In this document: positions 7,539-61,803 of the stretch, piece after piece
How positions within the stretch are numbered: the first letter of the stretch is position 1
How the letters are laid out: each line of letters opens with the position of its first letter
Virus record (IMG/VR): IMGVR_UViG_3300027861_000018
Location: 22,269 to 86,268 of that record
Reading direction: 5' to 3' (one strand)
From: a virus
Length of the DNA stretch: 64,000 bases
Notes under the pieces: generated by a model
Told to the model about the DNA's origin: nothing
The model's database searches: none
The model's input: the letters and a program-made list of their open reading frames with translations, nothing else
Made by a program: the position numbers and the translations under genes

Positions 7539-8584
7539 TAGGCAATACTCTCTGTTATGCGCGGCCAGTCACCGCTCTTGATGATCCGTGCCAATACTCG
7601 CGCGACTTGGCTCACGTGACGCTCCTCGACCCCCTCAATGACGGTTGGTCGTCGGGCATCCTTCCACCGCTTGACGCGCAACGTCTTGGGCAAAACAGCC
7701 CTGGCCATCTCCACCATTGCATCAGGCGCTACCAATTGAATCTTGATCATGGGCTGACGCTTGGATGGATACAGATACATCACGGCCAATGGAGTCGCCT
7801 TGGCGTTGTTCTTGCGGACGTACATCACATAGTGATCGCTTCTGCGAAGCCTGTCCCGGTAGAACATGCCCCCAGCGTGACACCGGTGTCGATACTCTCC
7901 AGCAAATTCAACAGGGATTGCTCTGGCAAAGGCCGCCATCATCTTCTTGGCGATGGCTCGTGACTCAGCATACACATACGGGTCGTGAGGGAACCCGATG
8001 CGCGGGCGGGGTGAGCCAGGCTTGCTTGATGCGGTGACCTCTTGCTTGCTCTGCGCATCAGGCGTGGGCTGGGTGGGCCGAAGCACAACTGACCGATACT
8101 GAGTGGCAGAAGGCGGTCCTTCAGCATCATCATCGGCCGCCATGAACCATATCGTCCGCTCTGGAGTCGTGTTGACCGCGGCTGACCTGATTTGAATCTT
8201 GCGACACATATTGCGCCAGACACAGGGCGGCTCGGCCCCGGGGCCGATCAGGCCGTCGCAAGTTGGGTCGCCGGGCTCATGGTGGCCGACACACCCAGGG
8301 TTGTTGAATCTGTGCCTGGCTGCTGCCGCCCAGTGGGGCAACCCCTCCGGAATGGACCCGTGCTCCACCCACGTCACAGTTGCCGTCTGCTTGTTCACAG
8401 CAACGCATACGCGCCCCCACTCATACGTCTCGACGAGCAGACTCCATCCCTTGTCCCTCAGGCGCACAGGGCGATGCTGCTTGGTTGGCCTGGGGTCCAG
8501 CCCGAAGGCTGCGATGTAGTCATGGACCATCTTGGCATCCATGCGGGCGCCAATGGCGACACGGTATAGCGTTTCAGACTTCAT
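7538..8584 (-). CDS. Unknown protein with a Cys-rich metal-binding segment
   Basis: 348 residues, not recognised. Around residues 95-130 there is a cluster NPGCVGHHEPGDPTC followed by PPCVWRNMCRK: four cysteines plus histidines in about 35 residues, suggesting a zinc or iron-sulfur site. A Pro/Ser/Gln-rich linker (about 165-195) separates this from a C-terminal domain rich in basic residues. The ATG lies inside the 3' end of the sigma-like gene (11-base overlap) and the stop overlaps the FAD gene start. Possible roles are nucleic-acid binding or redox chemistry. Confidence 0.6.
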   Translation of the reverse strand: MKSETLYRVAIGARMDAKMVHDYIAAFGLDPRPTKQHRPVRLRDKGWSLLVETYEWGRVCVAVNKQTATVTWVEHGSIPEGLPHWAAAARHRFNNPGCVGHHEPGDPTCDGLIGPGAEPPCVWRNMCRKIQIRSAAVNTTPERTIWFMAADDDAEGPPSATQYRSVVLRPTQPTPDAQSKQEVTASSKPGSPRPRIGFPHDPYVYAESRAIAKKMMAAFARAIPVEFAGEYRHRCHAGGMFYRDRLRRSDHYVMYVRKNNAKATPLAVMYLYPSKRQPMIKIQLVAPDAMVEMARAVLPKTLRVKRWKDARRPTVIEGVEERHVSQVARVLARIIKSGDWPRITESIA

Positions 8585-9260
8585 AGCCGCGCTCCCTGAG
8601 CAGTGCTCTGGCAGCCCTGCGAATGCGCCCTGCTTCGCACTCCACCTGCCCGTATGTCATGTCCAAGTACATGGCGATGTGCCGCTTGGTGACCTTGAAC
8701 ACACCTGAATTGCCTGTCAGGTTACGCACCATGGCGTGAAGCTCCCAGTCAGGATTGACCATTGCCTTGAGAATCTTGCGTTGGCCTTTGTTGAGACGAG
8801 CCATCAACAAGATGACTATGGTGCGCGCCTCCGTATTGCCCTCCCCATAGTCAGCCACCTGCTCTGGGGTCAAGCCGCTGATCCCCTGTGCCGGCAAGCT
8901 GTCGACGTATCTGCTGCTGCCATCCTCTGACACCAGGCGGTCCAGCGAGCAGGGGCGGCGAGGCACCTTGTTCCACTCGCCTGTCCCCACGTCCTGCTCC
9001 CACACCCTCGGCATGCGCATCAGAGCATATGCCTTGTTGGCGATGTTCCGATACTCATTGTCCAAGAAATACCCCACATAATTGGGGAGCTTCACGCCCT
9101 TGCTTGGGTCGTATGTCTGAACTGCGCGATGGGCGTGCCAACGCCCTTCTTGGAGCAGGTCGGCATACTCGCCCACGCCCTTGCGCACCAGGACACGGAC
9201 CTTGAAATGGATGAGGCCGATGAATTGCGGCTCGACATCCTCATATCTCAGATTGTTCAT
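8574..9260 (-). CDS. RNA polymerase sigma-factor-like protein
   Basis: 228 residues. Residues about 32-75 (GEYADLLQEGRWHAHRAVQT, DPSKG, NYVGYFLDNEYRN) match sigma-70 region 2, where an acidic DLxQEG segment is followed by aromatic residues that bind and melt the -10 element. The C-terminal part contains a plausible region-4 helix-turn-helix (DMTYGQVECEAGRIRRAAR). The start has a strong CTGGAGTAC ribosome site of the type seen at several genes here. It could direct host RNA polymerase to middle or late phage promoters. Confidence 0.7.
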   Translation of the reverse strand: MNNLRYEDVEPQFIGLIHFKVRVLVRKGVGEYADLLQEGRWHAHRAVQTYDPSKGVKLPNYVGYFLDNEYRNIANKAYALMRMPRVWEQDVGTGEWNKVPRRPCSLDRLVSEDGSSRYVDSLPAQGISGLTPEQVADYGEGNTEARTIVILLMARLNKGQRKILKAMVNPDWELHAMVRNLTGNSGVFKVTKRHIAMYLDMTYGQVECEAGRIRRAARALLRERGYEV

Positions 9261-9275
9261 TTTGTACTCCAGGGG

Positions 9276-11291
9276 TTATGCGTGTCGGTGGAGGTTGAAC
9301 CAGTGGGGCGCGACCTCTAATATCATGTCAGCCAATTGGCCTAAGTTGTTGCAGGTGCGGTGATTGGGGTAGTAGTGGCGCACGGAATCATCCATGATTC
9401 CGAACCCCCAAACCTCAATGCCAGCTGATATCGCTGCGGCAATGCACGCCTTGAGCTCGCGGCGCATTTTCGCCGAGTTGCCTGGCGCTGCGGGTTGGCC
9501 GTCAGACAAGACCATCAAGATGCGGCGCTTGGCTCTGCGGCACCGCAGCTCTTGGAGAGCCCACTTGACCGAGTCTGGGTCAGCATTCTCCCACAGCCTA
9601 ACCTCTGCTGCCACGCGGCTGCGAACCTGCGACCAGTTCTCATCCCAATCGCACCAGTTGTAGTGCTCAATGGGCGACAGACGACCGTAATGATGCGTGT
9701 GCGTGTAACTTCCGGTGATGGAGTTGCCTGCCGTGAAACCTGTGGCACTAAGCTGAATGCTGTTAGGCGTTGTCCTGTTGATGGAATCCAGCAAGTCACC
9801 CAGAAGCAGGATGCCCTGCTGCATCAGGGCGAATTTGGAACCTGCCATGGAGCCAGAGCAGTCGCCCAACAGCTTGATAGCCACATCATGCGTCTCGCCC
9901 GGCACCAGGCGTGTCCTGATGTTATCGACTGGGCGCCCTGCTTCGCGGATGTTTGCGCGCCACATGGCGCGGCGGTCAAGTCGCCCGTGGCGCTGAGCAT
10001 ATACCTTTGTGGACTGAGACCGCGTAGCCAGCAAGGTGCGCATCCTAGCAGACAGCGTGGCCGACTCCTTGCTAACCCCCTTCGCGATGCGCTCTGCCGC
10101 AGATAGGGTGGCCGCTGTGACGGCTGGCGTCGCAATCATATCCTTCTTGGCTGCGCCGGGGTGCACCGTGTAGTCGGTCATCCCATCCGCCTTGGCCGTG
10201 TTGGTGGGCGCAGCGCCAGCTTGCCTGATTATGGCTTCATCAATCGCTTCATGAATAGGCGACTCAGTGTCAGTGAGCGTGAGAGACCCGGCCTTGAGCG
10301 CCCTAAGTGCCTTCAAGACCTCCTCTGCTGACACTGGCGCCATGTCTGGGCTCTCGGCGCTCTTGTCGCGCTTGGCGCCTCCACCCCCTTCATCCCCTTC
10401 ATCCCCTTCACCCTCTTCACCCTCTTCACCCTCTTCAGCAGGGGCCTCGCTGTCACCGCCTGGCGACATCATACCTTTCAACTCTTCATCAGGGATGGAA
10501 GTGCCGGCGCTGTAAAGCGCGTCAGCATAGCACAGCGCCAGATTCCAAGCATCCCAAACGCTCCCAAGGGTCTCTGGACTGAGCAAGGCATGGAAGCCGT
10601 CAAGAGCCTTCAACACGGTCAGGGACTCTTGGCACAAGAAGCTGTAATCATAACCCCAGGCGTGGAAGATGATCCCGCACCCAACCTGATACGTTGGGTC
10701 AACTGATCTGGGATTAGCTGCCAGCTTCTTGCCCCAACTCCGATGGGCGTGATCACGCCCGGCCTTGAGGTGCTGCGCCACGCCTCGATAACGCTCACCA
10801 GCCCGCCGCTCAATTCGCACATCCTCCACCACATTGAACATCATAGCAACAAGATTGGCGCCAAGTAGTCCGGCGACGACATTCAGAAGGCCGACAGGGG
10901 TGGTGCGATAGGTGCATCGGGTCCCTGGCGGCAGGGCGAGTAATTTGATGTGGTCTGTGACTATGAGGCACGTCCTCTCCCAGATGGCGGCATTGATGGC
11001 AACTGACGCCCTGTCGGCCGCGGCGTGCTCTGCCTCCACCTGCACTTTGACGTGCTCTGATTCATGATTGACCTTGGCCCACACCAAGTCCATATCTTCA
11101 TCAGCCAGCTCTGCGACGTTTGTCGGCAGAGTGACCGTCCCTAGCATGTCAGTCTTGCACTGACCTGACTGGAAGATGACTCGCAGGTCGTGGCGGTCAC
11201 TGAACGTTTGGGCGATACGCTCAAGGCGCCCCCCTATGAGGGGCAATCGCGTCTCAATGGACTTGGCATTCTTGATAGCAGCTTTTGCCAC
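9276..11291 (-). CDS. CobT-like von Willebrand A domain protein
   Basis: 671 residues from a GTG with AGGAG 6 bases upstream. The C-terminal third is a VWA domain whose MIDAS motif is DCSGSM, followed by later MIDAS elements including VLSDGQPA. The N-terminal part is helical with an HESEH segment near residue 76. A middle region of Glu/Gly repeats (about residues 285-315) is a flexible linker, as in CobT. It follows the gene for a MoxR/CobS-like AAA+ ATPase, the usual partner of such proteins. In cellular systems these pairs insert metal (CobS-CobT) or remodel proteins (MoxR/RavA-ViaA). The phage role is unknown; a chaperone-type role is inferred. Confidence 0.8.
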   Translation of the reverse strand: MAKAAIKNAKSIETRLPLIGGRLERIAQTFSDRHDLRVIFQSGQCKTDMLGTVTLPTNVAELADEDMDLVWAKVNHESEHVKVQVEAEHAAADRASVAINAAIWERTCLIVTDHIKLLALPPGTRCTYRTTPVGLLNVVAGLLGANLVAMMFNVVEDVRIERRAGERYRGVAQHLKAGRDHAHRSWGKKLAANPRSVDPTYQVGCGIIFHAWGYDYSFLCQESLTVLKALDGFHALLSPETLGSVWDAWNLALCYADALYSAGTSIPDEELKGMMSPGGDSEAPAEEGEEGEEGEGDEGDEGGGGAKRDKSAESPDMAPVSAEEVLKALRALKAGSLTLTDTESPIHEAIDEAIIRQAGAAPTNTAKADGMTDYTVHPGAAKKDMIATPAVTAATLSAAERIAKGVSKESATLSARMRTLLATRSQSTKVYAQRHGRLDRRAMWRANIREAGRPVDNIRTRLVPGETHDVAIKLLGDCSGSMAGSKFALMQQGILLLGDLLDSINRTTPNSIQLSATGFTAGNSITGSYTHTHHYGRLSPIEHYNWCDWDENWSQVRSRVAAEVRLWENADPDSVKWALQELRCRRAKRRILMVLSDGQPAAPGNSAKMRRELKACIAAAISAGIEVWGFGIMDDSVRHYYPNHRTCNNLGQLADMILEVAPHWFNLHRHA

Positions 11292-11417: not shown

Positions 11418-12776
11418 TCAACGGCCGACCACCTGACGGATGATGTCACCCACCGTCTTGTGATCTGGGTCTGCCGGATCAATGCCATTGGTGACACTAA
11501 GCCGAGCTGCCAGATGAATGTTCTTTGTGGCGTGCGCGAGACGCGCCCACACCAGCGACTTCCGCGGGCTGATTGAAGCTCGACAACGCGCCTTGGCCTT
11601 GGCTTCATTGACCTTGATCGCTGTCTGAACAATCATCTTGGCGTCGGAAAGTGCGATGGATGTCTTTCCAACCAGCATCTTGACCCACACCTTGTCAGCT
11701 GGGTACGCGTGGCGCATCTTGATGCCCCATCGATCCAGCGCTGCTGCATTGAGGACGAATGTGCCAGCATAGTCGCCAGTCATATCACCTTGCCCAGACG
11801 TGTTGGCGCTTGCCATGATGCGGAAAGCAGGGTGTGCGTCGACCACTTCGCCGCTAGCGAGGAGCAATTGACAGTGAGGTTTGCCGTCAGCAATGGCCTT
11901 CAATGGGTCGTGGTGGCGCTCAGTCAACCTCTGCAAGACCGTGTGCACCTGGGGCGGCGCAGCGTCAATCTCATCAATCAGAAGCAGATGGCCGCGGCGC
12001 ATGGCGGTTACCACAGGGCCATCTTCCCATGCTGTGACGACACTCCCCTCATCGGTCTCGACCATGACCACGTCACCAACAAGATCAGATGGGCGCATAT
12101 CCCCATAGAAATTGACCCTGGTCACGGGTTGATTCGACAGGGCGCTGATGATGTTGACCAGCGAAGTCTTGCCGCTTCCGGTGGGCCCAATGATGAGCAC
12201 ATTTTCAACCATGGCGATGCCCAGGGCAATCTGCGCCAGAGCTGCCTCGACGCTCCCGCTGATCTCATATCGGTCGTCGTAAGGTGCGACCATGGATGCA
12301 TCCGCAGCACCCCACCCATCCCAGATACCAAGGCGTGCCTTGGCCGAACCGCACGGAAGCTCCATCCATTTCGTGACTCGCGGACCAATGTGCCCGAGCG
12401 GCGCCGGCGCTGCCGCAAGCGAACTGCTCAGCGAAACCCCCTCTTCAGATGCGGGTGCGGGCGCTGGGGTGGGTGCTGGCTCTGGTGCAGGAGGACGGGC
12501 AGCACCCTTGGCTCCGGCTCTGATGCGGGCCGCATTGTACGCGCTCTGCGTCGGCGCTCCCGGATACTTGAGCCGATATGCCTCCACGCGGTCAAGTCCA
12601 GGTTTCAACATCTCTGGATGAGCCTTTCCCAGATGGACGGGCAGAGCGTGAAGCCTGCGCCCGCACTCGCAGCAAATGATTTTGTCGGCGCGACTTGTCT
12701 CATCACGTCCCATGGTGGTCGCCATGATCACCCTGTCTCGCAGCGACAGGTCTGCGATATCGATACGCTTGCTCAT
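11418..12776 (-). CDS. MoxR/CobS-like AAA+ ATPase with N-terminal Ros/MucR-like zinc finger
   Basis: 452 residues from an ATG at 12776 with GGAG about 8 bases upstream; upstream in-frame sequence includes a repetitive leader and is probably untranslated. Residues about 30-75 read CCECGRRLHALPVHLGKAH then YRLKYPG, resembling the C2H2 Ros/MucR finger. An Ala/Pro linker follows. The ATPase has Walker A GPTGSGKT, Walker B LLLIDEIDAA and an N-containing sensor 1 (RIMASANTS), typical of the CobS/MoxR clade. The partner is the CobT-like VWA protein encoded next. The zinc-finger fusion suggests a nucleic-acid or protein-docking role. Confidence 0.8.
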   Translation of the reverse strand: MSKRIDIADLSLRDRVIMATTMGRDETSRADKIICCECGRRLHALPVHLGKAHPEMLKPGLDRVEAYRLKYPGAPTQSAYNAARIRAGAKGAARPPAPEPAPTPAPAPASEEGVSLSSSLAAAPAPLGHIGPRVTKWMELPCGSAKARLGIWDGWGAADASMVAPYDDRYEISGSVEAALAQIALGIAMVENVLIIGPTGSGKTSLVNIISALSNQPVTRVNFYGDMRPSDLVGDVVMVETDEGSVVTAWEDGPVVTAMRRGHLLLIDEIDAAPPQVHTVLQRLTERHHDPLKAIADGKPHCQLLLASGEVVDAHPAFRIMASANTSGQGDMTGDYAGTFVLNAAALDRWGIKMRHAYPADKVWVKMLVGKTSIALSDAKMIVQTAIKVNEAKAKARCRASISPRKSLVWARLAHATKNIHLAARLSVTNGIDPADPDHKTVGDIIRQVVGR

Positions 12777-12801
12777 CCGTGTACTCCAGTGTGCCGTGGC
12801 G

Positions 12802-12828
12802 CCGGGGTTGCCGGGGTTGCCGGGGTTG
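12802..12828. repeat. Tandem 9-bp repeat, three units
   Basis: Three perfect copies of CCGGGGTTG lie in the 130-base gap between the primase stop and the AAA+ start, within the presumed 5' leader of the ATPase message. Function unknown; slippage or protein binding are both possible. Confidence 0.6.
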
Positions 12829-12855
12829 CGCGTTGACTGACGGAACCTTAACTGA

Positions 12856-12869
12856 GCAAGGCACCTTGC
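12856..12869 (-). promoter_or_regulatory. GC-rich inverted repeat between primase and AAA+ genes
   Basis: GCAAGG, CA, CCTTGC is a perfect 6-bp inverted repeat about 40 bases downstream of the primase stop. A run of T/A lies on the upstream side for minus-strand transcripts, so it lacks the trailing U-run of a terminator. It may be an operator or a weak RNA structure. Confidence 0.3.
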
Positions 12870-12906
12870 GGCTACAACTTTTTTTGCCTTAAAGCAATAT
12901 CTGTGC

Positions 12907-13914
12907 TCAATCCCAAGGATTGTGAAAGAGCTTTGCTGCGGCAGCAAGTCCATCAAGCGGAGTGGCAACGAGCGCGGCCTCAATAATGTGACGGCGGGCA
13001 GCCTTTTTGTTGGCCACAGTATCGGGGTCAATGCCGCGAGGCAACTTGACCACCTTCATTGAGCGGAATCGATGAGCAATGTGAGAGCATTTGACCACCA
13101 CGTCTTGGTATGCCTCGCCATCAGGCACCACAATTAGCTCTGGCGGGTCCAGCTCAGCCAATAATTCCACTTGTGGGTCCCGCAAGTGGCTGCCGAAATA
13201 AGGGCACGACTGGAAGCCCCAGCCATCCCATCGTATGGCGTCAAAAATGCCCTCCATCACGTATACGGGGGCACCTGGGTCCAATCTGTCAAAGCCGCCC
13301 AAGAAATTGGCTTGGAGGGTCCCTGGGTTGAGATACTTGAATTTGGACCTGCCGGACATGTCCCGAGCAACAAAGCTCGTCATGCCGCCGCACACAACAG
13401 GAATGACCACGCGCTCGCGATACTTGCCACTCATGCAGTAGCCCATCCCCCAACGTCTAGCAGCTGATTGATTGATGCCCCTGTTCTTCAAGTATGGCGG
13501 GATGCGATAGGTGTTGCGACCCCTGTCCCAGCAAGGCCTGAAGCCCGGCGGCATCGGCACCGAGAGATCAACGGCAGCGGCGGCGCTAAGCGTCCCATCC
13601 TTCAAAGACTGGAACATCTGGGCCAGCTCTGACATTGGTCGAGCTTTGATGATGCCGCGAGCGAAGCGCCCAACGACCTCCACCGCTTGGGCGTATCCGC
13701 AACCCTCAATCTGCATCACCAGGGCGGCAATGTTGCCTCGTGCTTTGCAGTGCCCGGAATAGCAGTTGAACTTCAACTTGCGAATATTCACATACATCTT
13801 GTCGGACCGACCGCAGAAGAGGCAACTGCGCAAGACCAATTCATCCCCATCCCGGTGCTTTTGACGGCGCAGGACAGAGAGATTCCTGAGCAGATAGTCT
13901 TCTGCCGCACTCAC
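12907..13914 (-). CDS. DnaG-like phage primase
   Basis: 335 residues. The N-terminal zinc ribbon uses C31, C34, C51 and a SGHC at 53-56. The TOPRIM domain follows, with VYVMEGIFDAIRW (Glu221-Gly222) and VVPDGEAYQD (Asp265), the metal-binding acidic residues. It is shorter than bacterial DnaG and lacks an obvious helicase-binding C-terminal domain. It would make RNA primers at the phage fork with the DnaB-like helicase and DnaE. The GTG start overlaps the stop of a 29-residue open frame (GTGA). Confidence 0.85.
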   Translation of the reverse strand: MSAAEDYLLRNLSVLRRQKHRDGDELVLRSCLFCGRSDKMYVNIRKLKFNCYSGHCKARGNIAALVMQIEGCGYAQAVEVVGRFARGIIKARPMSELAQMFQSLKDGTLSAAAAVDLSVPMPPGFRPCWDRGRNTYRIPPYLKNRGINQSAARRWGMGYCMSGKYRERVVIPVVCGGMTSFVARDMSGRSKFKYLNPGTLQANFLGGFDRLDPGAPVYVMEGIFDAIRWDGWGFQSCPYFGSHLRDPQVELLAELDPPELIVVPDGEAYQDVVVKCSHIAHRFRSMKVVKLPRGIDPDTVANKKAARRHIIEAALVATPLDGLAAAAKLFHNPWD

Positions 13915-53741: not shown

Positions 53742-53957
53742 TCACGCTCCTTCTGCTAGCGCCCAAACAATGGATCTGCCCACTTTGCGATCAGTGCGCT
53801 TCACAAGTCCCTGAGCCAACAGGTGGTTCAGGGCAGAATTGACGCGGGTGCCCTTGCCGGTCAGTCGACCCAGCAATTGGGCGCTGGCTTCTCCGCCCTC
53901 ACGCTTCAGAGCTAGCAGCACTCTGGACCCAAGCGTGGGCTGGTTGGTCAATCTCAT
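53742..53957 (-). CDS. Small winged-helix DNA-binding protein
   Basis: 71 residues from MRLTNQPTLG (AAGGA in front; ATGA overlap with the upstream stop). A MarR/ArsR-like fold is suggested by SRVLLALKREGGEASAQLLG, GTRVNSALNHLLAQGLV and the wing RTDRKVGRSIVWALA. Such a short regulator may bind nearby operators and control the late or early genes. Confidence 0.65.
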   Translation of the reverse strand: MRLTNQPTLGSRVLLALKREGGEASAQLLGRLTGKGTRVNSALNHLLAQGLVKRTDRKVGRSIVWALAEGA

Positions 53958-54340
53958 ATAGTCCTTCTTGTTGAATCGGCGCCAAGCGAGATGACCACAC
54001 CCAGCTTCCACCTTTGGACGATCATCGCAAGATTCCTCAGGTCAACCCAATTCTCATACAGAATCATGTCAATCACCGAGCTGCTCACGTCATCCGCTTG
54101 ATGCCAAGCGTGAAAGATGCCTGATGGCGCTTTCTTGCCATTCCAGGCAAGCACGAGTGCTCGTGGCATGAGACCTTGCATAGGCCCAGAATAAAGCCTC
54201 CACACCGAGGCGCCAATTCGAATGTCCGTGCCTGAAATGGCAATGGGAGGGCGGGCCCCCACCAAACTTTCGCGCAGCAAGCTACGCGGGTCACCCTTCT
54301 CTGGGATCAACAAAACGCCTGATGGCTCCTGATGTCTCAT
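53954..54340 (-). CDS. Hypothetical protein
   Basis: 128 residues. Contains ALVLAWNGKKAPSGIFHAWH and WVDLRNLAMIVQRWKLGVVI. No family recognised. The ATG overlaps the stop of a small membrane protein gene and its stop overlaps the winged-helix gene start, so all three form one operon. Confidence 0.55.
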   Translation of the reverse strand: MRHQEPSGVLLIPEKGDPRSLLRESLVGARPPIAISGTDIRIGASVWRLYSGPMQGLMPRALVLAWNGKKAPSGIFHAWHQADDVSSSVIDMILYENWVDLRNLAMIVQRWKLGVVISLGADSTRRTI

Positions 54341-54539: not shown

Positions 54540-54722
54540 TCACAGCATTGGCGGAGACATTGGCGGAGGCGGGGGCATTATGCTGACCTCGGCTGTTATG
54601 GTGACTTGCGCCGGGACGGTGCCGTGATCAATGCCCGCGATGACATTGCTGCAAGGCGCTGCGCTTTCGCGCTCAGGTGCGCCTGGAGCAAAGCGGTTCC
54701 GGAGGTCGTCAAGACTACTCAC
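54540..54722 (-). CDS. LDDLRNRF-tagged small protein, proline-rich C-terminus
   Basis: 60 residues from a GTG (GTGA overlap with the preceding TGA); a TTG at 54734 is an alternative. Starts SSLDDLRNRFAPG, the same tag found at the start of the next two upstream genes, then a short region and a Pro-rich end (IMPPPPPMSPPML). Otherwise unrelated to them. Confidence 0.55.
   Translation of the reverse strand: MSSLDDLRNRFAPGAPERESAAPCSNVIAGIDHGTVPAQVTITAEVSIMPPPPPMSPPML
54682..54716. repeat. 35-bp direct repeat, copy 1
   Basis: Identical over 35 bp to 55080-55114. Encodes the tag LDDLRNRFAPG on the minus strand. The surrounding sequences differ, so the copy is confined to the tag. Confidence 0.85.
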
Positions 54723-55123
54723 ATCAGCACCCAAGCAATCCCAAGCTCCAGATAGTCGCGCCGGAGTCGCTTGTTGCGCATCGTGTGCGCGGTTCTCATG
54801 GCTTCAGCTTTGCTGCGATGATATGACTTGGAATTGTGCTTCATTTTGGACGCATCAAGACATTCTGAAATGTCATTGATCGCACCCCAGTGCGCCTGCA
54901 CTATCCAGTCGCGACGTGCGCCGAGTGCTGGCGGGGTGATGATGGTGATGACGCGGATGTGATAGCCCTTCCAGGTCTTGACCTTGCCTTCAGCGTAAAA
55001 GCCTGTTGAGAACCAAATCTTGGTAGCTTCAGCTTCAGCTGCAAGCGGAAGAGGCGGTGGCGCTGACACAAGTGCAGCACCTGGAGCAAAGCGGTTCCGG
55101 AGGTCGTCAAGACTGGGAGGCAT
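54719..55123 (-). CDS. LDDLRNRF-tagged small protein
   Basis: 134 residues from the ATG at 55123 with AGGAGG upstream. Starts PPSLDDLRNRFAPGA, then an Ala/Pro-rich spacer, followed by a domain containing KVKTWKGYHIRVITIITPP and SKAEAMRTAHTMRNKRLRR. Similar overall to the next gene (KGYHIRVI against TGHHIRVI), so these two may be paralogues. Confidence 0.6.
   Translation of the reverse strand: MPPSLDDLRNRFAPGAALVSAPPPLPLAAEAEATKIWFSTGFYAEGKVKTWKGYHIRVITIITPPALGARRDWIVQAHWGAINDISECLDASKMKHNSKSYHRSKAEAMRTAHTMRNKRLRRDYLELGIAWVLM
55080..55114. repeat. 35-bp direct repeat, copy 2
   Basis: Identical over 35 bp to 54682-54716; a third diverged version lies at about 55420-55455 in the next gene upstream. 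Confidence 0.85.
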
Positions 55124-55460
55124 CGCGCACCTCCTTTGTCTCATAATGTGAGTAGCCGCTTATCAATGCTCTGTTGGTGAGAGTCTGCGCAGCTAAGATG
55201 GCGCTGGCCAAGGTGTCATATGATGACGTCGTCCTGCCTGAGAAGTTTCTCCAATCCAGACAGTCTGAAGGGCGGCAGATCAGGCCGCTATAGTGCTCAA
55301 CGCCCCAACCGCGTTCACGCCAAATGACGCGGATGTGGTGCCCTGTTGGTGAGGGGCCCACCGCCCAAAGGCTGGCAGCAAGCGGAAGAGGCGGTGCCGG
55401 CTTGGCGTGGGTGATTTTGCCAAGCGTGAAGCGGTTGCGAAGGTCATCGAGCTTGGTCAT
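55107..55460 (-). CDS. LDDLRNRF-tagged small protein, paralogue
   Basis: 117 residues beginning MTKLDDLRNRFTLGKITHA, then APPLPLAASLW and a domain with TGHHIRVIWRERGWGV and SYDTLASAILAAQTLTNRAL. Starts 1 base after the stop of the 529-residue gene, with GAGG 8 bases upstream. Shares both tag and downstream layout with the 134-residue protein. Confidence 0.65.
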   Translation of the reverse strand: MTKLDDLRNRFTLGKITHAKPAPPLPLAASLWAVGPSPTGHHIRVIWRERGWGVEHYSGLICRPSDCLDWRNFSGRTTSSYDTLASAILAAQTLTNRALISGYSHYETKEVRDASQS

Positions 55461-55461
55461 A

Positions 55462-57051
55462 TCAATTGCCTCGCGCCAACCTGCGGAGCGCAGGGGTGTT
55501 GGTCTTCACTCCGTTGATAGTATACCTGCAAGTGCGCCAATTCAGAGCGCCTGTGGCCCGGCCATCAACGGCAGCCTGGATGGCCGCGGCGGGGTCTGCG
55601 AATGTCGCTGCGAAGGGAGTGCCGTCAACACGCTTGGCGGTGAGTAGGATGACAACCCCCTGCGCGCTGCTGGCTTCTTCGGCACTTGCCGGCGCTGCTT
55701 GAATCTCGGTGTGGGGCGCGGCAGGGGGTGCCTTCTCGACCACAGGAGCGGTCGCAGGAGCGGGTGTCGAGGTGGTGAGCTCGAAGGAAGCGCGGCTGAT
55801 CGAGGTCTGCTTGCGTCCGGTCTTGCTGTCTGTGTCGTGACGCTTGATGGTGCCGGTGATCGTGACGAGCTTGCCGACTTGGATGTCATCACCGACCACG
55901 CCAGTGTTGAAGTTAATAACGTCATTGCCTTCCGCTGTTTGGGCGACAATGACGGTTGTGAGGCCGTATGTGCCCTCAAAGCTGTGCCGGCGCAGGATAG
56001 TTGCTTGAATTGTCGGGATGCCTGTCTTGCCCTTGCCGCCGAAGCGCTGGCCAACATCGCCCATCCAGTCGCTCGGCAGGGCCGTCTGGAGCTTGCGTGC
56101 GATGGCCCGGTCACGCTCACGCTGGTAGACGGCAACTGCGCTGGCAGCCAGGCCCATCTCTTTGGCGCTCACGCTGGAGCGGCTGAGGACAACCCGCAGG
56201 TTGTGCAGGTAGTCGCTGTCAGTGTCGGGGTCGATGTCACGGGCCCAAGCCAGCGCGGCTTCAGCGTCTTGCGCATCCACAGCGTGAAGCTCTGGCAGGC
56301 GTTCGTCCCTGGCCGGCTTGCGCAAGCCGCAAGCGAGTGTAGCCGCATCCCACGCCGTGTCAGCTGTGGCTTCACCTGCGTCCTGGTCTTCACGCGCCTT
56401 GGTGCGGCTGGTCCAACCGATGGCGCGGATGGCAACGGCAGTCCAGGTGAGGGCATCAAGGACTCCAATGCGCCAGATGCCGCCGCCAAAGCTGTAGCCG
56501 TTCCGCTCGCTGTCTTCGAATGCAGCTTGGAATGTGCGCATCCAAGTGGCGCTGGCCAGGATGTCCTTGCCCTCTTGGCCGCCAAGGTAGTCACGGATGC
56601 ATTGGCGGCCGACTCGGCGCAGCTCACCATCTTCGTGGCGGACAACGAACGTCTCGTTGCGCCGGCGGATGGTGCGACAGTGGTCGCACGTTGGGGCGTC
56701 AGTGCGGTAGCTCTTGGGGAGGGCGCCGGTGAAGTGAGGCACTGAGCGGATGACGTTCAGCGAGTTGCCGGCATCATCGGTGCCGTGATCAATGGTTCCC
56801 ACGAACGACCAGCCGCCAAACTTCACAGGGGCGTCCTGCGTGACGGCGCACGGGATGTAGCGCTGGATGAACTTGCGCCCCATCTCATCGCGGAGGGTGA
56901 TATCTGCGGGCTCGCCCTCGGTGACCGTGGGGACGGGCACGCCCAACTTTGCGGCACGCCGTTGGAGCTTGGCAACCTTGGCGCGCACGGCGCCGATGTT
57001 GCACTCTGGGATGTTGAAGGTCCAGCGCGTGTCGTCAGTGGCGATGGTCAT
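55462..57051 (-). CDS. Zinc-finger and OB-fold-like nucleic-acid-binding protein
   Basis: 529 residues. A metal-binding region near 115-150 has PTCDHCRTIRRRNETFVV and RRVGRQCIRDYLGG. A later region (TYGLTTVIVAQTAEGNDVIN, GKLVTITGTIKRHDTDSKTG) looks like an OB fold, so single-stranded DNA or RNA binding is plausible. After a Pro/Ala linker a last domain contains NWRTCRYTINGVKTNTPALR. First gene after the promoter at 57093-57136. Name unknown. Confidence 0.65.
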   Translation of the reverse strand: MTIATDDTRWTFNIPECNIGAVRAKVAKLQRRAAKLGVPVPTVTEGEPADITLRDEMGRKFIQRYIPCAVTQDAPVKFGGWSFVGTIDHGTDDAGNSLNVIRSVPHFTGALPKSYRTDAPTCDHCRTIRRRNETFVVRHEDGELRRVGRQCIRDYLGGQEGKDILASATWMRTFQAAFEDSERNGYSFGGGIWRIGVLDALTWTAVAIRAIGWTSRTKAREDQDAGEATADTAWDAATLACGLRKPARDERLPELHAVDAQDAEAALAWARDIDPDTDSDYLHNLRVVLSRSSVSAKEMGLAASAVAVYQRERDRAIARKLQTALPSDWMGDVGQRFGGKGKTGIPTIQATILRRHSFEGTYGLTTVIVAQTAEGNDVINFNTGVVGDDIQVGKLVTITGTIKRHDTDSKTGRKQTSISRASFELTTSTPAPATAPVVEKAPPAAPHTEIQAAPASAEEASSAQGVVILLTAKRVDGTPFAATFADPAAAIQAAVDGRATGALNWRTCRYTINGVKTNTPALRRLARGN

Positions 57052-60190: not shown

Positions 60191-60850
60191 TTCATCCGCC
60201 CAAGCAACCAAGTTATCACGACCCTACAGCTTGCCCCAGGAGGTTGACGACTTGGATGCGATGAGTACCCACCTTACACAACCCACCATTTAGGGCGCAA
60301 ATTCTAAGGCAATCAAGCACCTTTTCCACACTCTCAATCCCACCAAATAATGGGTATGGATAACAGCCTATTCACACCTTGGAGGTATTGAAAACCACTT
60401 TCAGGGCAGAAGGGGCCAACTAACCCGCCCCGGGGCCACCCCCACCCCCACACAATCCCATAATTCAATGGGGCTGGATCACGACTTTGCCGGGGCCAAG
60501 GGGCTTAGAGCTCCACAGTTTCTGGAATCCCAATGAGGGTGCGGGAAGGGGGGTATGAGAATCTGAGCAACTCGGCTCTGGGCGTGACGGTCGGCTCGGG
60601 CTTCATTGGCGCCATGGTCAACTGGCCAAGGGCGCTCTGGAACTGGGTCGTTGGCATGCTTGCCAGGTTCACCTGGCGCATTGATGGTCTGCCTTGGTTC
60701 AGCCCATGGCATTGGCTTGGCGCGGGTATCGACCTAAGGTGCCCGGCATCTTGACTGAGTTTCCAATCAATGGAGTGCGCGTTGGTCGGCCTTGGGGGTT
60801 GTGAGGCTGTGTTGGCGACCTGGCGGTGTTGGTGGTGATGGCTATGTTGA

Positions 60851-60960
60851 TGGTGATTGTGGTGATTGTGGTGATTGTGGTGATGGCTATGTTGATGGTG
60901 ATTGTGGTGATTGTGGTGATTGTGGTGATTGTGGTGATTGTGGTGATTGTGGTGATTGTT
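60851..60960. repeat. Tandem 9-bp repeat array (TGATTGTGG)
   Basis: Runs of TGATTGTGG, three copies, then an interrupting segment GATGGCTATGTTGATGG, then about six more. Purine and pyrimidine asymmetry is strong. On the minus strand it reads as His-Asn-His repeats. Confidence 0.85.
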
Positions 60961-61028
60961 GTATGTGCATAATGAGCGTGATTGGGGTGATTGTTGTATG
61001 TGCATAATGAGCGTGATTGGGGTGATTG
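60959..61028. repeat. 35-bp tandem repeat, two perfect copies
   Basis: The unit begins TTGTATGTGCATAATGAGCG and occurs at 60959 and 60994 without mismatch, running on from the 9-bp array. Confidence 0.85.
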
Positions 61029-61173
61029 GAGGTTTGAGAAAATACAGTTGCATCCTCATCAGTCCACACAACGCTCCCCCACCCTGGCCCCCACCAGCCC
61101 CAAATTGGCCAGTAGTGGGGGGTTGCCTGGGGTAATTGGCCATCACGCCCAAACCAGCATCCCGCCCAGCCCC

Positions 61174-61246
61174 CATCAATGGACCATCCACACATACTGG
61201 CAAGTCTGGAGGGTCGAGCTCATCAATGGACCATCCACACATACTG
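61174..61246. repeat. 26-bp direct repeat
   Basis: The segment that starts CATCAATGGACCATCCACAC is found at 61174-61199 and 61221-61246, identical over 26 bp. Confidence 0.8.
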
Positions 61247-61803
61247 ATCAGCAGATGGACCAATGTGGATTTGCGGGCGCTGGGCGCGGCAAGTCGGCCT
61301 AGTTGGCCAGCTACGGGGCGCAGCTAGCGCCGGTCAGGGGCGAGGTTGGGAGGAGCCGGCCGGCGCTCCCTAGCTGGGCACCTGCTTCGCCGATGAGGGC
61401 GGACGGCCCACCCTTATCCTCGGGATGATGGAGGCGGATGCCGATTGGAGCGCTTAGACGCTCCGGCGCTAGGCGCTGGAAGTGATGGGCGCTTGGGCGC
61501 TATGGCGCCATTGGGCGGCGTCTCGGAGGGCGCGCGCGGTTGGATGGCTGACGGATGGTGAAAGTGATGGGCGCTTGGGCGTGATGAGCGTTCGGGAGGT
61601 GATTGGCACTGGCGCACATGCCACATAGAACCCCAATCACGCCGCGCCAATCACCCCCAAACCATCATCTTCAACAATCGGGTTAGGGAGTCTTCAACCC
61701 GTCAACGGTCGCTCTCTTTGGGTCCTTACGCCCATTCCCTACCCAACTGGATAGGTACCAAGGGAGCCTACCTCGCAATGGCCTAGAGCCATCCCCTACC
61801 GCG

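Follow-up and report, generated by a model that had tools for sequence, protein, structure and literature searches.

Sliding-clamp-binding peptides and the tails of single-stranded DNA-binding protein (SSB) are short stretches at flexible protein ends that bring many unrelated proteins of DNA metabolism to one hub. The capsid targeting sequence of phage T4, another short terminal sequence, is found at the N-terminus only. Here, we analysed a window of 64,000 nucleotides (bases 22269-86268 of the 86,268-base virus record IMGVR_UViG_3300027861_000018, designated G000) that contains three adjacent minus-strand genes, genes 1 to 3, each encoding the peptide LDDLRNRF (the tag) at the N-terminus of its product. 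The tag is a terminal peptide under selection that stands on unrelated protein bodies, in gene 3 without the body of its neighbours. We infer that it is, rather probably, a short linear motif through which the tagged proteins dock onto a single shared phage partner in DNA metabolism.

Three adjacent genes with one N-terminal tag

The three tagged genes are sited outside the structural cluster and, together with their tags, comprise the following features (window positions):

55107-55460, minus strand: gene 1, 117 amino acids; N-terminal tag MTK-LDDLRNRF, proline-rich linker, body homologous to that of gene 2
55428-55451, minus strand: tag codons of gene 1, with five silent differences from gene 2
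54719-55123, minus strand: gene 2, 134 amino acids, MPPSLDDLRNRF...; N-terminal tag MPPS-LDDLRNRF, proline-rich linker, body with a predicted WGR-like fold
55130-55137, minus strand: AAAGGAGG, resembling a ribosome-binding site for gene 2, within the 3' end of gene 1; read from the sequence
55088-55111, minus strand: tag codons of gene 2, from a codon-pattern scan
55077-55114, minus strand: 38-nucleotide repeat, gene 2 copy, 97% identical to the gene 3 copy
54540-54722, minus strand: gene 3, 60 amino acids; tag VSS-LDDLRNRF, short unrelated proline-rich body
54690-54713, minus strand: tag codons of gene 3, from a codon-pattern scan
54679-54716, minus strand: 38-nucleotide repeat, gene 3 copy, paired with the gene 2 copy

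The start of gene 2 was set at the ATG at 55123, which is preceded by AAAGGAGG (the listed open reading frame, ORF, starts at 55144), and the GTG start of gene 3 overlaps the stop of gene 2. A six-frame scan found LDDLRNRF three times in the window, always in genes 1 to 3, and no further copy at full identity elsewhere in the 86-kb record. A degenerate codon pattern for the tag matched exactly three times in the 64 kb, compared to 0.00 matches expected from 100 shuffles, which bears out the claim of an earlier sequence-only reading that one peptide is carried by three adjacent genes. That reading also stated that two copies have 35 identical base pairs limited to the tag and that a third is diverged. 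Indeed, the copies of genes 2 and 3 are identical over 35 bases and at 37 of the 38 positions of the repeat, in a match that ends with the tag, and the copy of gene 1 differs from that of gene 2 by five bases. All five of these differences between the tag codons of genes 1 and 2 are at third positions and silent, leaving the same eight residues; the chance that five random changes would all be silent is 0.000275, and it is therefore the peptide, not the DNA, that is conserved and under selection.

After removal of the tags, the bodies of genes 1 and 2 are still homologous (33 of 102 residues identical, E = 7e-10 in a single comparison), and these genes therefore represent an old, diverged tandem pair. 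The body of gene 3 matches neither of the other two (best E = 0.22); this gene received the tag without the body. The statement in the sequence-only reading that the body of the first gene differs from those of the others is correct only if the first gene is taken to be gene 3 (at position 54540), and fails for the homologous bodies of genes 1 and 2.

The tag on further proteins of the record and its relatives

All six frames of the 86-kb record were searched with the regular expression [LIVM][DE].[LIVM][RK].[RK][FYW], which yielded six matches, namely the three LDDLRNRF tags, LDALRRRF, LERLRARW, and one match in a 31-residue frame. Both additional matches in long ORFs are terminal: LDALRRRFLS ends a zinc-ribbon protein (record 8267-9094), where it follows a proline-rich linker, and LERLRARWLE ends a 153-amino-acid ORF (record 2225-2686) that gave no family match and is probably a gene. 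In each, the tag stands two residues before the C-terminus.

Eight related contigs (G001-G008) were gathered with the tail-sheath gene. A scan of viral contigs for Met-x-x-Leu-Asp-x-Leu-Arg-x-Arg-Phe gave 22 matches in 21 stretches, six of them in three contigs with two matches each; two of these three contigs, G009 and G010, have a large set of core genes in common with G000, and a further record, G011, repeats two tagged genes of G010. In G001, the closest relative, a single N-terminal tag (METLDQLRNKF) starts a homologue of gene 2 (a single comparison with the tag left out gave E = 1e-5). Four N-terminal tags are found in G009, on a WGR protein (Pfam WGR, 5.4e-15), on a zinc/ExoX-like_C protein (2e-5, just below the curated cut-off), and on two proteins of no known family (142 and 323 amino acids). 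G010 presents two N-terminal tags, on a WGR-like protein with a long proline-rich linker (Pfam, 0.045) and on a 98-amino-acid protein, as well as one C-terminal tag (LEQLRDRWRQ). Also in G010, a DUF6011 protein (record 29936; L072:10936-11208, plus strand) contains LPSIEEIRSRF behind a proline/alanine linker; IEEIRSRF may be a copy of the tag that sits inside this protein, with one part of it on either side. G008 encodes two proteins with C-terminal tags, ending SLEDVRTKFQRGN and LDEIRKRLQGANT, and a third that starts with the weaker N-terminal match MPSIDDIRKML and, compared without tags, is similar to the tagged ExoX-C protein of G009 at E = 7e-5.

Overall, at least ten additional proteins of G000 and its relatives have a tag resembling LDxLRxRF at their very N- or C-terminus, mostly on unrelated bodies, and position 2 is Asp or Glu in all LDxLRxRF-type cases listed. 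When the tags were removed from 42 tagged proteins (including those with the second tag type, described below), just seven pairs were similar at E = 0.01; gene calls were greedy ORFs rather than Prodigal predictions, and the tagged genes 33885 of G009 and 44949 of G010, which these calls had missed, were added to this comparison by hand. The tag thus recurs on unrelated proteins and outside folded domains, as a docking motif does.

A related-locus search of viral contigs gave no passing homologue of gene 1, gene 2, or the zinc-ribbon protein; with genes 1 and 2 as queries, tblastn against 50,697 phage records gave no match even at E = 10. A scan of viral contigs for codons of the exact tag found 10 stretches, estimated to be about chance level. 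In one of these stretches, a phrog_1066 protein (L010:1354-1731, plus strand), encoded just upstream of a terminase-like gene, ends in SSLDDLRNRFKVG, which may be chance. In 257 Gb of genome contigs, MPTL[DE]xLRxRF occurred in just three stretches, representing two similar 131-amino-acid proteins and one frame broken by a stop; the label is therefore no general bacterial motif.

Permuted motifs served as controls. Five permuted regular expressions applied to four genomes (20 sets) gave two N-terminal and one C-terminal matches in total, compared to raw counts for the true expression in G000, G001, G009, and G010 of 3, 1, 5, and 4 at the N-terminus and 3, 0, 0, and 2 at the C-terminus; these raw counts include a second N-terminal match in G009 to a gene already counted, which is truncated where a stretch ends, the internal DUF6011 site in G010 (counted as N-terminal), one N-terminal and one C-terminal match in G010 that are the same site inside an SbcC-like gene, and one C-terminal match in G000 on the non-coding strand. 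When the tag of the window was scored against six relatives with BLOSUM62, the six best matches were all terminal, as were 10 of the 20 matches scoring at least 22, a number reached by none of 2000 permuted tags (mean 0.59, maximum 6); this test is partly circular, as G009 and G010 had been chosen since the tag pattern matched each of them twice. Because these two contigs had been found by the tag, a test on relatives chosen by their sheath gene was also run. In those that encode a MoxR ATPase (G001, G007, and G008), five of nine matches scoring at least 22 were terminal, which again none of 2000 permuted tags reached, one of these five (G001 21980, near the start of a 933-amino-acid ORF) probably being due to chance. 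In the MoxR-negative G002-G005, one of two matches was terminal, a result reached by 382 of 2000 permuted tags. G006 (27 kb) and G011 were left out of this test and of a scan with a tag score matrix, which was trained on the tags that it then finds.

A tag limited to the three genes and spread by tandem duplication of whole genes does not describe these data, because the tag also ends unrelated proteins in the same record and in relatives, above permuted controls; genes 1 and 2 are nevertheless such a duplication. The sequence-only reading had anticipated a tag that sits on diverse proteins and moves between genes, and both the tagged gene 3 and the unrelated tagged proteins of G000 and its relatives agree with this.

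Several tagged proteins have, or are predicted to have, a WGR domain, which is listed among DNA-binding domains of jumbo phages in PMC7824862. The body of gene 2 is likely WGR-like, given the match of its modelled fold and the presence of a tagged gene with a Pfam WGR domain at the same place in G009, where this gene, like the gene 2 homologue of G001, directly follows the VWA gene (see below). An AlphaFold2 model of gene 2, built with two homologues (three sequences), had a predicted local distance difference test score (pLDDT) of 74, with strands and a helix from residue 33 onward and disorder at residues 13-31 (pLDDT below 50). In VIA-align, the top 17 rows for this model were all WGR-bearing PARP chains (Z from 9.5 to 7.5), followed by an unrelated row at 7.2, so that the top-placed chains stand well clear of unrelated ones and the last of the 17 do so by little; the match to the WGR domain of PARP2 reached Z = 9.5 with a root-mean-square deviation of 2.5 over 84 residues. 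In plain Foldseek against the PDB, nothing reached E = 0.001, with PARP1 at rank 2 (E = 0.16), and the Pfam WGR profile (PF05406) matched neither gene 1 nor gene 2; among G000, G001, G003, G007, G008, G009, and G010, it matched in G009 alone. When genes 1 and 2 and the G001 protein were compared as profiles with the two tagged WGR proteins, the match was weak (probability 1.1%, P = 0.048).

A candidate partner and a second label

The proposed docking motif would be roughly eight residues long, with the pattern [LI][DE]x[LI]Rx[RK]F or one close to it, and would stand at a free N- or C-terminus, often joined to the body by a flexible linker rich in proline and alanine. It probably forms a two-turn amphipathic helix, with L1, L4, and F8 on its hydrophobic face, which would bind to a groove on one partner that serves every tagged protein of a given phage. 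In this way, small accessory proteins would be gathered at one site of phage DNA metabolism; several of these have nucleic-acid-binding domains (WGR, zinc ribbon, ExoX-like C-terminal). The best single candidate for this partner, and a tentative one, is the CobS/CobT-like MoxR-VWA machine of the phage, which in the window would comprise two proteins:

9276-11291, minus strand: CobT-type VWA protein, candidate partner; 671 amino acids, Pfam CobT_C 2.6e-15
11418-13031, minus strand: MoxR/CobS-type AAA+ ATPase, candidate partner; 537 amino acids in the listed frame, Pfam AAA_5 2e-20

This machine is named first because residue 2 of the tag is Asp or Glu in all the cases listed and because, in rubisco activation, CbbO, a VWA adaptor, binds a single acidic residue on the surface of its target through its metal site (PMC4660213); the VWA metal site of the phage machine could engage the tag's conserved acidic residue likewise. 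This argument is weak, as Asp or Glu at position 2 also suits the start of a helix. MoxR was detected in six of 12 records (G000, G001, G007, G008, G009, and G010). Strong tags are found in G000, G001, G009, and G010 and weaker ones in G008, all five MoxR-positive; G007 is MoxR-positive with weak tag matches only, and G011, a fragment like G010, is tagged and MoxR-negative. G003, a 90-kb record with UvsX, SSB, SbcCD, helicase, and primase, is without MoxR, VWA, and tags. G000 also encodes a sigma-like protein (1.3e-4). In favour of the machine as partner, the interval from the VWA gene to the sigma-like gene contains tagged genes, four in all, in G001, G009, and G008; in G000 and G010, this interval is empty. 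A replication or recombination protein is a possible, if fairly unlikely, partner; presence or absence of core genes, as a route to the hub, pointed to no clear single gene.

A second label was found in named phages that encode CobT. In Rhizobium phage RHph_N1_10 (L114-L120), reached via WGR proteins, the WGR protein ends in NANFGRF, and other proteins end in NPNFGRF, HPNFGRF, HPNYGRF, NPMFGRF, and NNFGRF. This phage and six further named CobT-positive phages were compared with six CobT-negative phages, which were taken from earlier match lists and are unmatched for kinship. In a search for shared protein ends with no motif set beforehand, C-terminal pairs numbered 0, 6, 4, 1, 1, and 14 in the CobT-positive ICP2, V1VFA-S, nickie, CRP-810, PhiR41_1, and ANB28, respectively, versus 1, 2, 0, 0, 1, and 3 in the CobT-negative phages. 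An aromatic-Gly-x-aromatic motif at the C-terminus, with at most one residue behind it, was present in five of the seven CobT-positive phages (six in RHph_N1_10, four in V1VFA-S, seven in nickie, six in ANB28, and two in PhiR41_1), that is 25 matches versus 1.2 expected, with W01, where the label was first noticed, giving six of the 25; the expression was fixed after the pairs had been seen, and twelve other expressions, which gave 0 to 5 matches, are its control. The six CobT-negative phages gave three matches versus 1.1 expected, no clear enrichment, and two of the three are the same gene in a terminal repeat. In the genomes of the window's clade, this label is absent except for one match in G004. 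Proteins carrying it include WGR proteins (RHph_N1_10 and V1VFA-S) and two BRCT proteins (ANB28). Since a WGR-type protein is tagged in both groups, with different labels, the same kind of protein appears to be labelled in two ways. Over L114-L120, L145-L157, and L161-L172, the label is seen on many small proteins, whose annotations, where seen, are hypothetical except for the WGR protein. In Stenotrophomonas phage ANB28 (L172; record 102360, 102725), two neighbouring ORFs have yet another end in common, SVHYQVP and SIHYQVP, behind stretches that are unlike each other.

It is conceivable, and in our view unlikely, that many phages with MoxR-VWA (CobS/CobT-like) genes address proteins by a terminal peptide label specific to the lineage, read by this machine or by an adjoining part of the replisome, which would gather WGR, BRCT, and zinc-ribbon proteins (domain types of PARP DNA binding) at ends or nicks of phage DNA. 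The labels would be N- or C-terminal LDxLRxRF in the clade of the window and C-terminal aromatic-Gly-x-aromatic in the Rhizobium, Pseudomonas, and Stenotrophomonas phages and coliphages. Several observations weigh against the docking motif or against the machine as its partner. No tagged gene adjoins the MoxR/VWA genes in G000 and G010, and G002 (a 42.9-kb fragment in which MoxR was not detected) has one weak C-terminal match. The CobT-positive ICP2 and CRP-810 lack the aromatic-Gly-x-aromatic label, and this label has no conserved acidic side chain, so that simple binding to a metal site does not fit it. The CobT-positive phages also have other replication genes in common (as seen for W01), and the association of CobT with tags may therefore reflect kinship. 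In the gene 2 model, the helix predicted at the tag is of low confidence (block pLDDT of 46-59).

Alternative explanations and known systems

Among the alternatives to a docking motif, an unlikely one is that the tag is a packaging signal, a capsid targeting sequence such as that of the T4 internal proteins, by which DNA-binding or defence proteins of diverse kinds would be loaded into the head and later injected. The tagged proteins are indeed small and diverse, some with domains of DNA-binding type; MoxR-vWA pairs present in some jumbo phages have been proposed to act in virion assembly (PMC7824862); and the T4 internal proteins (PMC3012670) exemplify how a short terminal sequence on diverse proteins can mean packaging. 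However, several tagged genes adjoin helicase, primase, ligase, VWA, and sigma-like genes rather than head genes, G003 has structural genes and yet no tag, and no protease site was noticed behind the tag by eye. In addition, tags are C-terminal in G000, G008, and G010, whereas the T4 sequence is N-terminal. Homology only, that is one WGR-like family with a conserved N-terminus that was duplicated, with a truncated third copy and chance matches elsewhere, is very unlikely; the kinship of genes 1 and 2 with each other and of the G001 protein with gene 2, and the recurrence of tagged WGR proteins, would be accounted for, but not the unrelated bodies of the tagged zinc/ExoX-C, zinc-ribbon, 323-, 142-, and 98-amino-acid proteins, the C-terminal position of some tags, or counts above those of permuted tags. 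Least probable of all is a degradation or translation signal, since a degron for a host protease would fit the terminal position and the transfer between genes but the tag is unlike ssrA-type degrons, and a coding-level leader aiding translation is contradicted by the silent divergence between genes 1 and 2, which speaks against a signal at the nucleotide level, and by the C-terminal copies, which are no leader.

If the tag is a docking motif, a common terminal label turns unannotated small phage proteins into one set, probably serving one partner, and the tag peptide becomes a bait with which this partner could be fished out; should the partner be the MoxR-VWA pair, this would offer a first starting point for explaining the presence of CobS/CobT-like genes in phages. 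The second label is found in named, cultured phages and is thus approachable at the bench now. Searches confined to the open-licence PMC literature showed no description of such labels.

Three other ORFs of the window, all on the minus strand, were also noted. Upstream of gene 1, a phrog_2319 protein (55462-57051; 3.5e-67) of no known function has relatives in 420 phage records, the best match being annotated as a RecT-like single-stranded DNA annealing protein of Tunturiibacter phage Tunturi_5. An 89-amino-acid protein (53742-54011) has a weak winged-helix, MarR-like match (2.6e-5, below cut-off), and a putatively coding ORF at 60505-61263 is of low complexity and rich in His-Asn repeats (HNHHNHHNHH...).

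Compared to the known systems, the tag does not match the sequence motifs of clamp-binding peptides or SSB tails. It resembles the T4 capsid targeting sequence in that a set of small, otherwise diverse phage proteins has one brief conserved end in common, but differs in occurring at either end and, in several cases, beside replication, MoxR/VWA, and sigma-like genes. The WGR domain (PF05406), associated with PARP-type binding of DNA ends, has the fold modelled for the body of gene 2; however, gene 2 lacks the W-G-R signature and a Pfam match, and the tag is no part of WGR. Among MoxR-VWA pairs (CobS/CobT, CbbQ/CbbO, and RavA/ViaA), we know of none that uses a common terminal peptide label. Such a pair is encoded by the phages with the strongest tags, and VWA adaptors are able to recognise an acidic residue of their target (PMC4660213).
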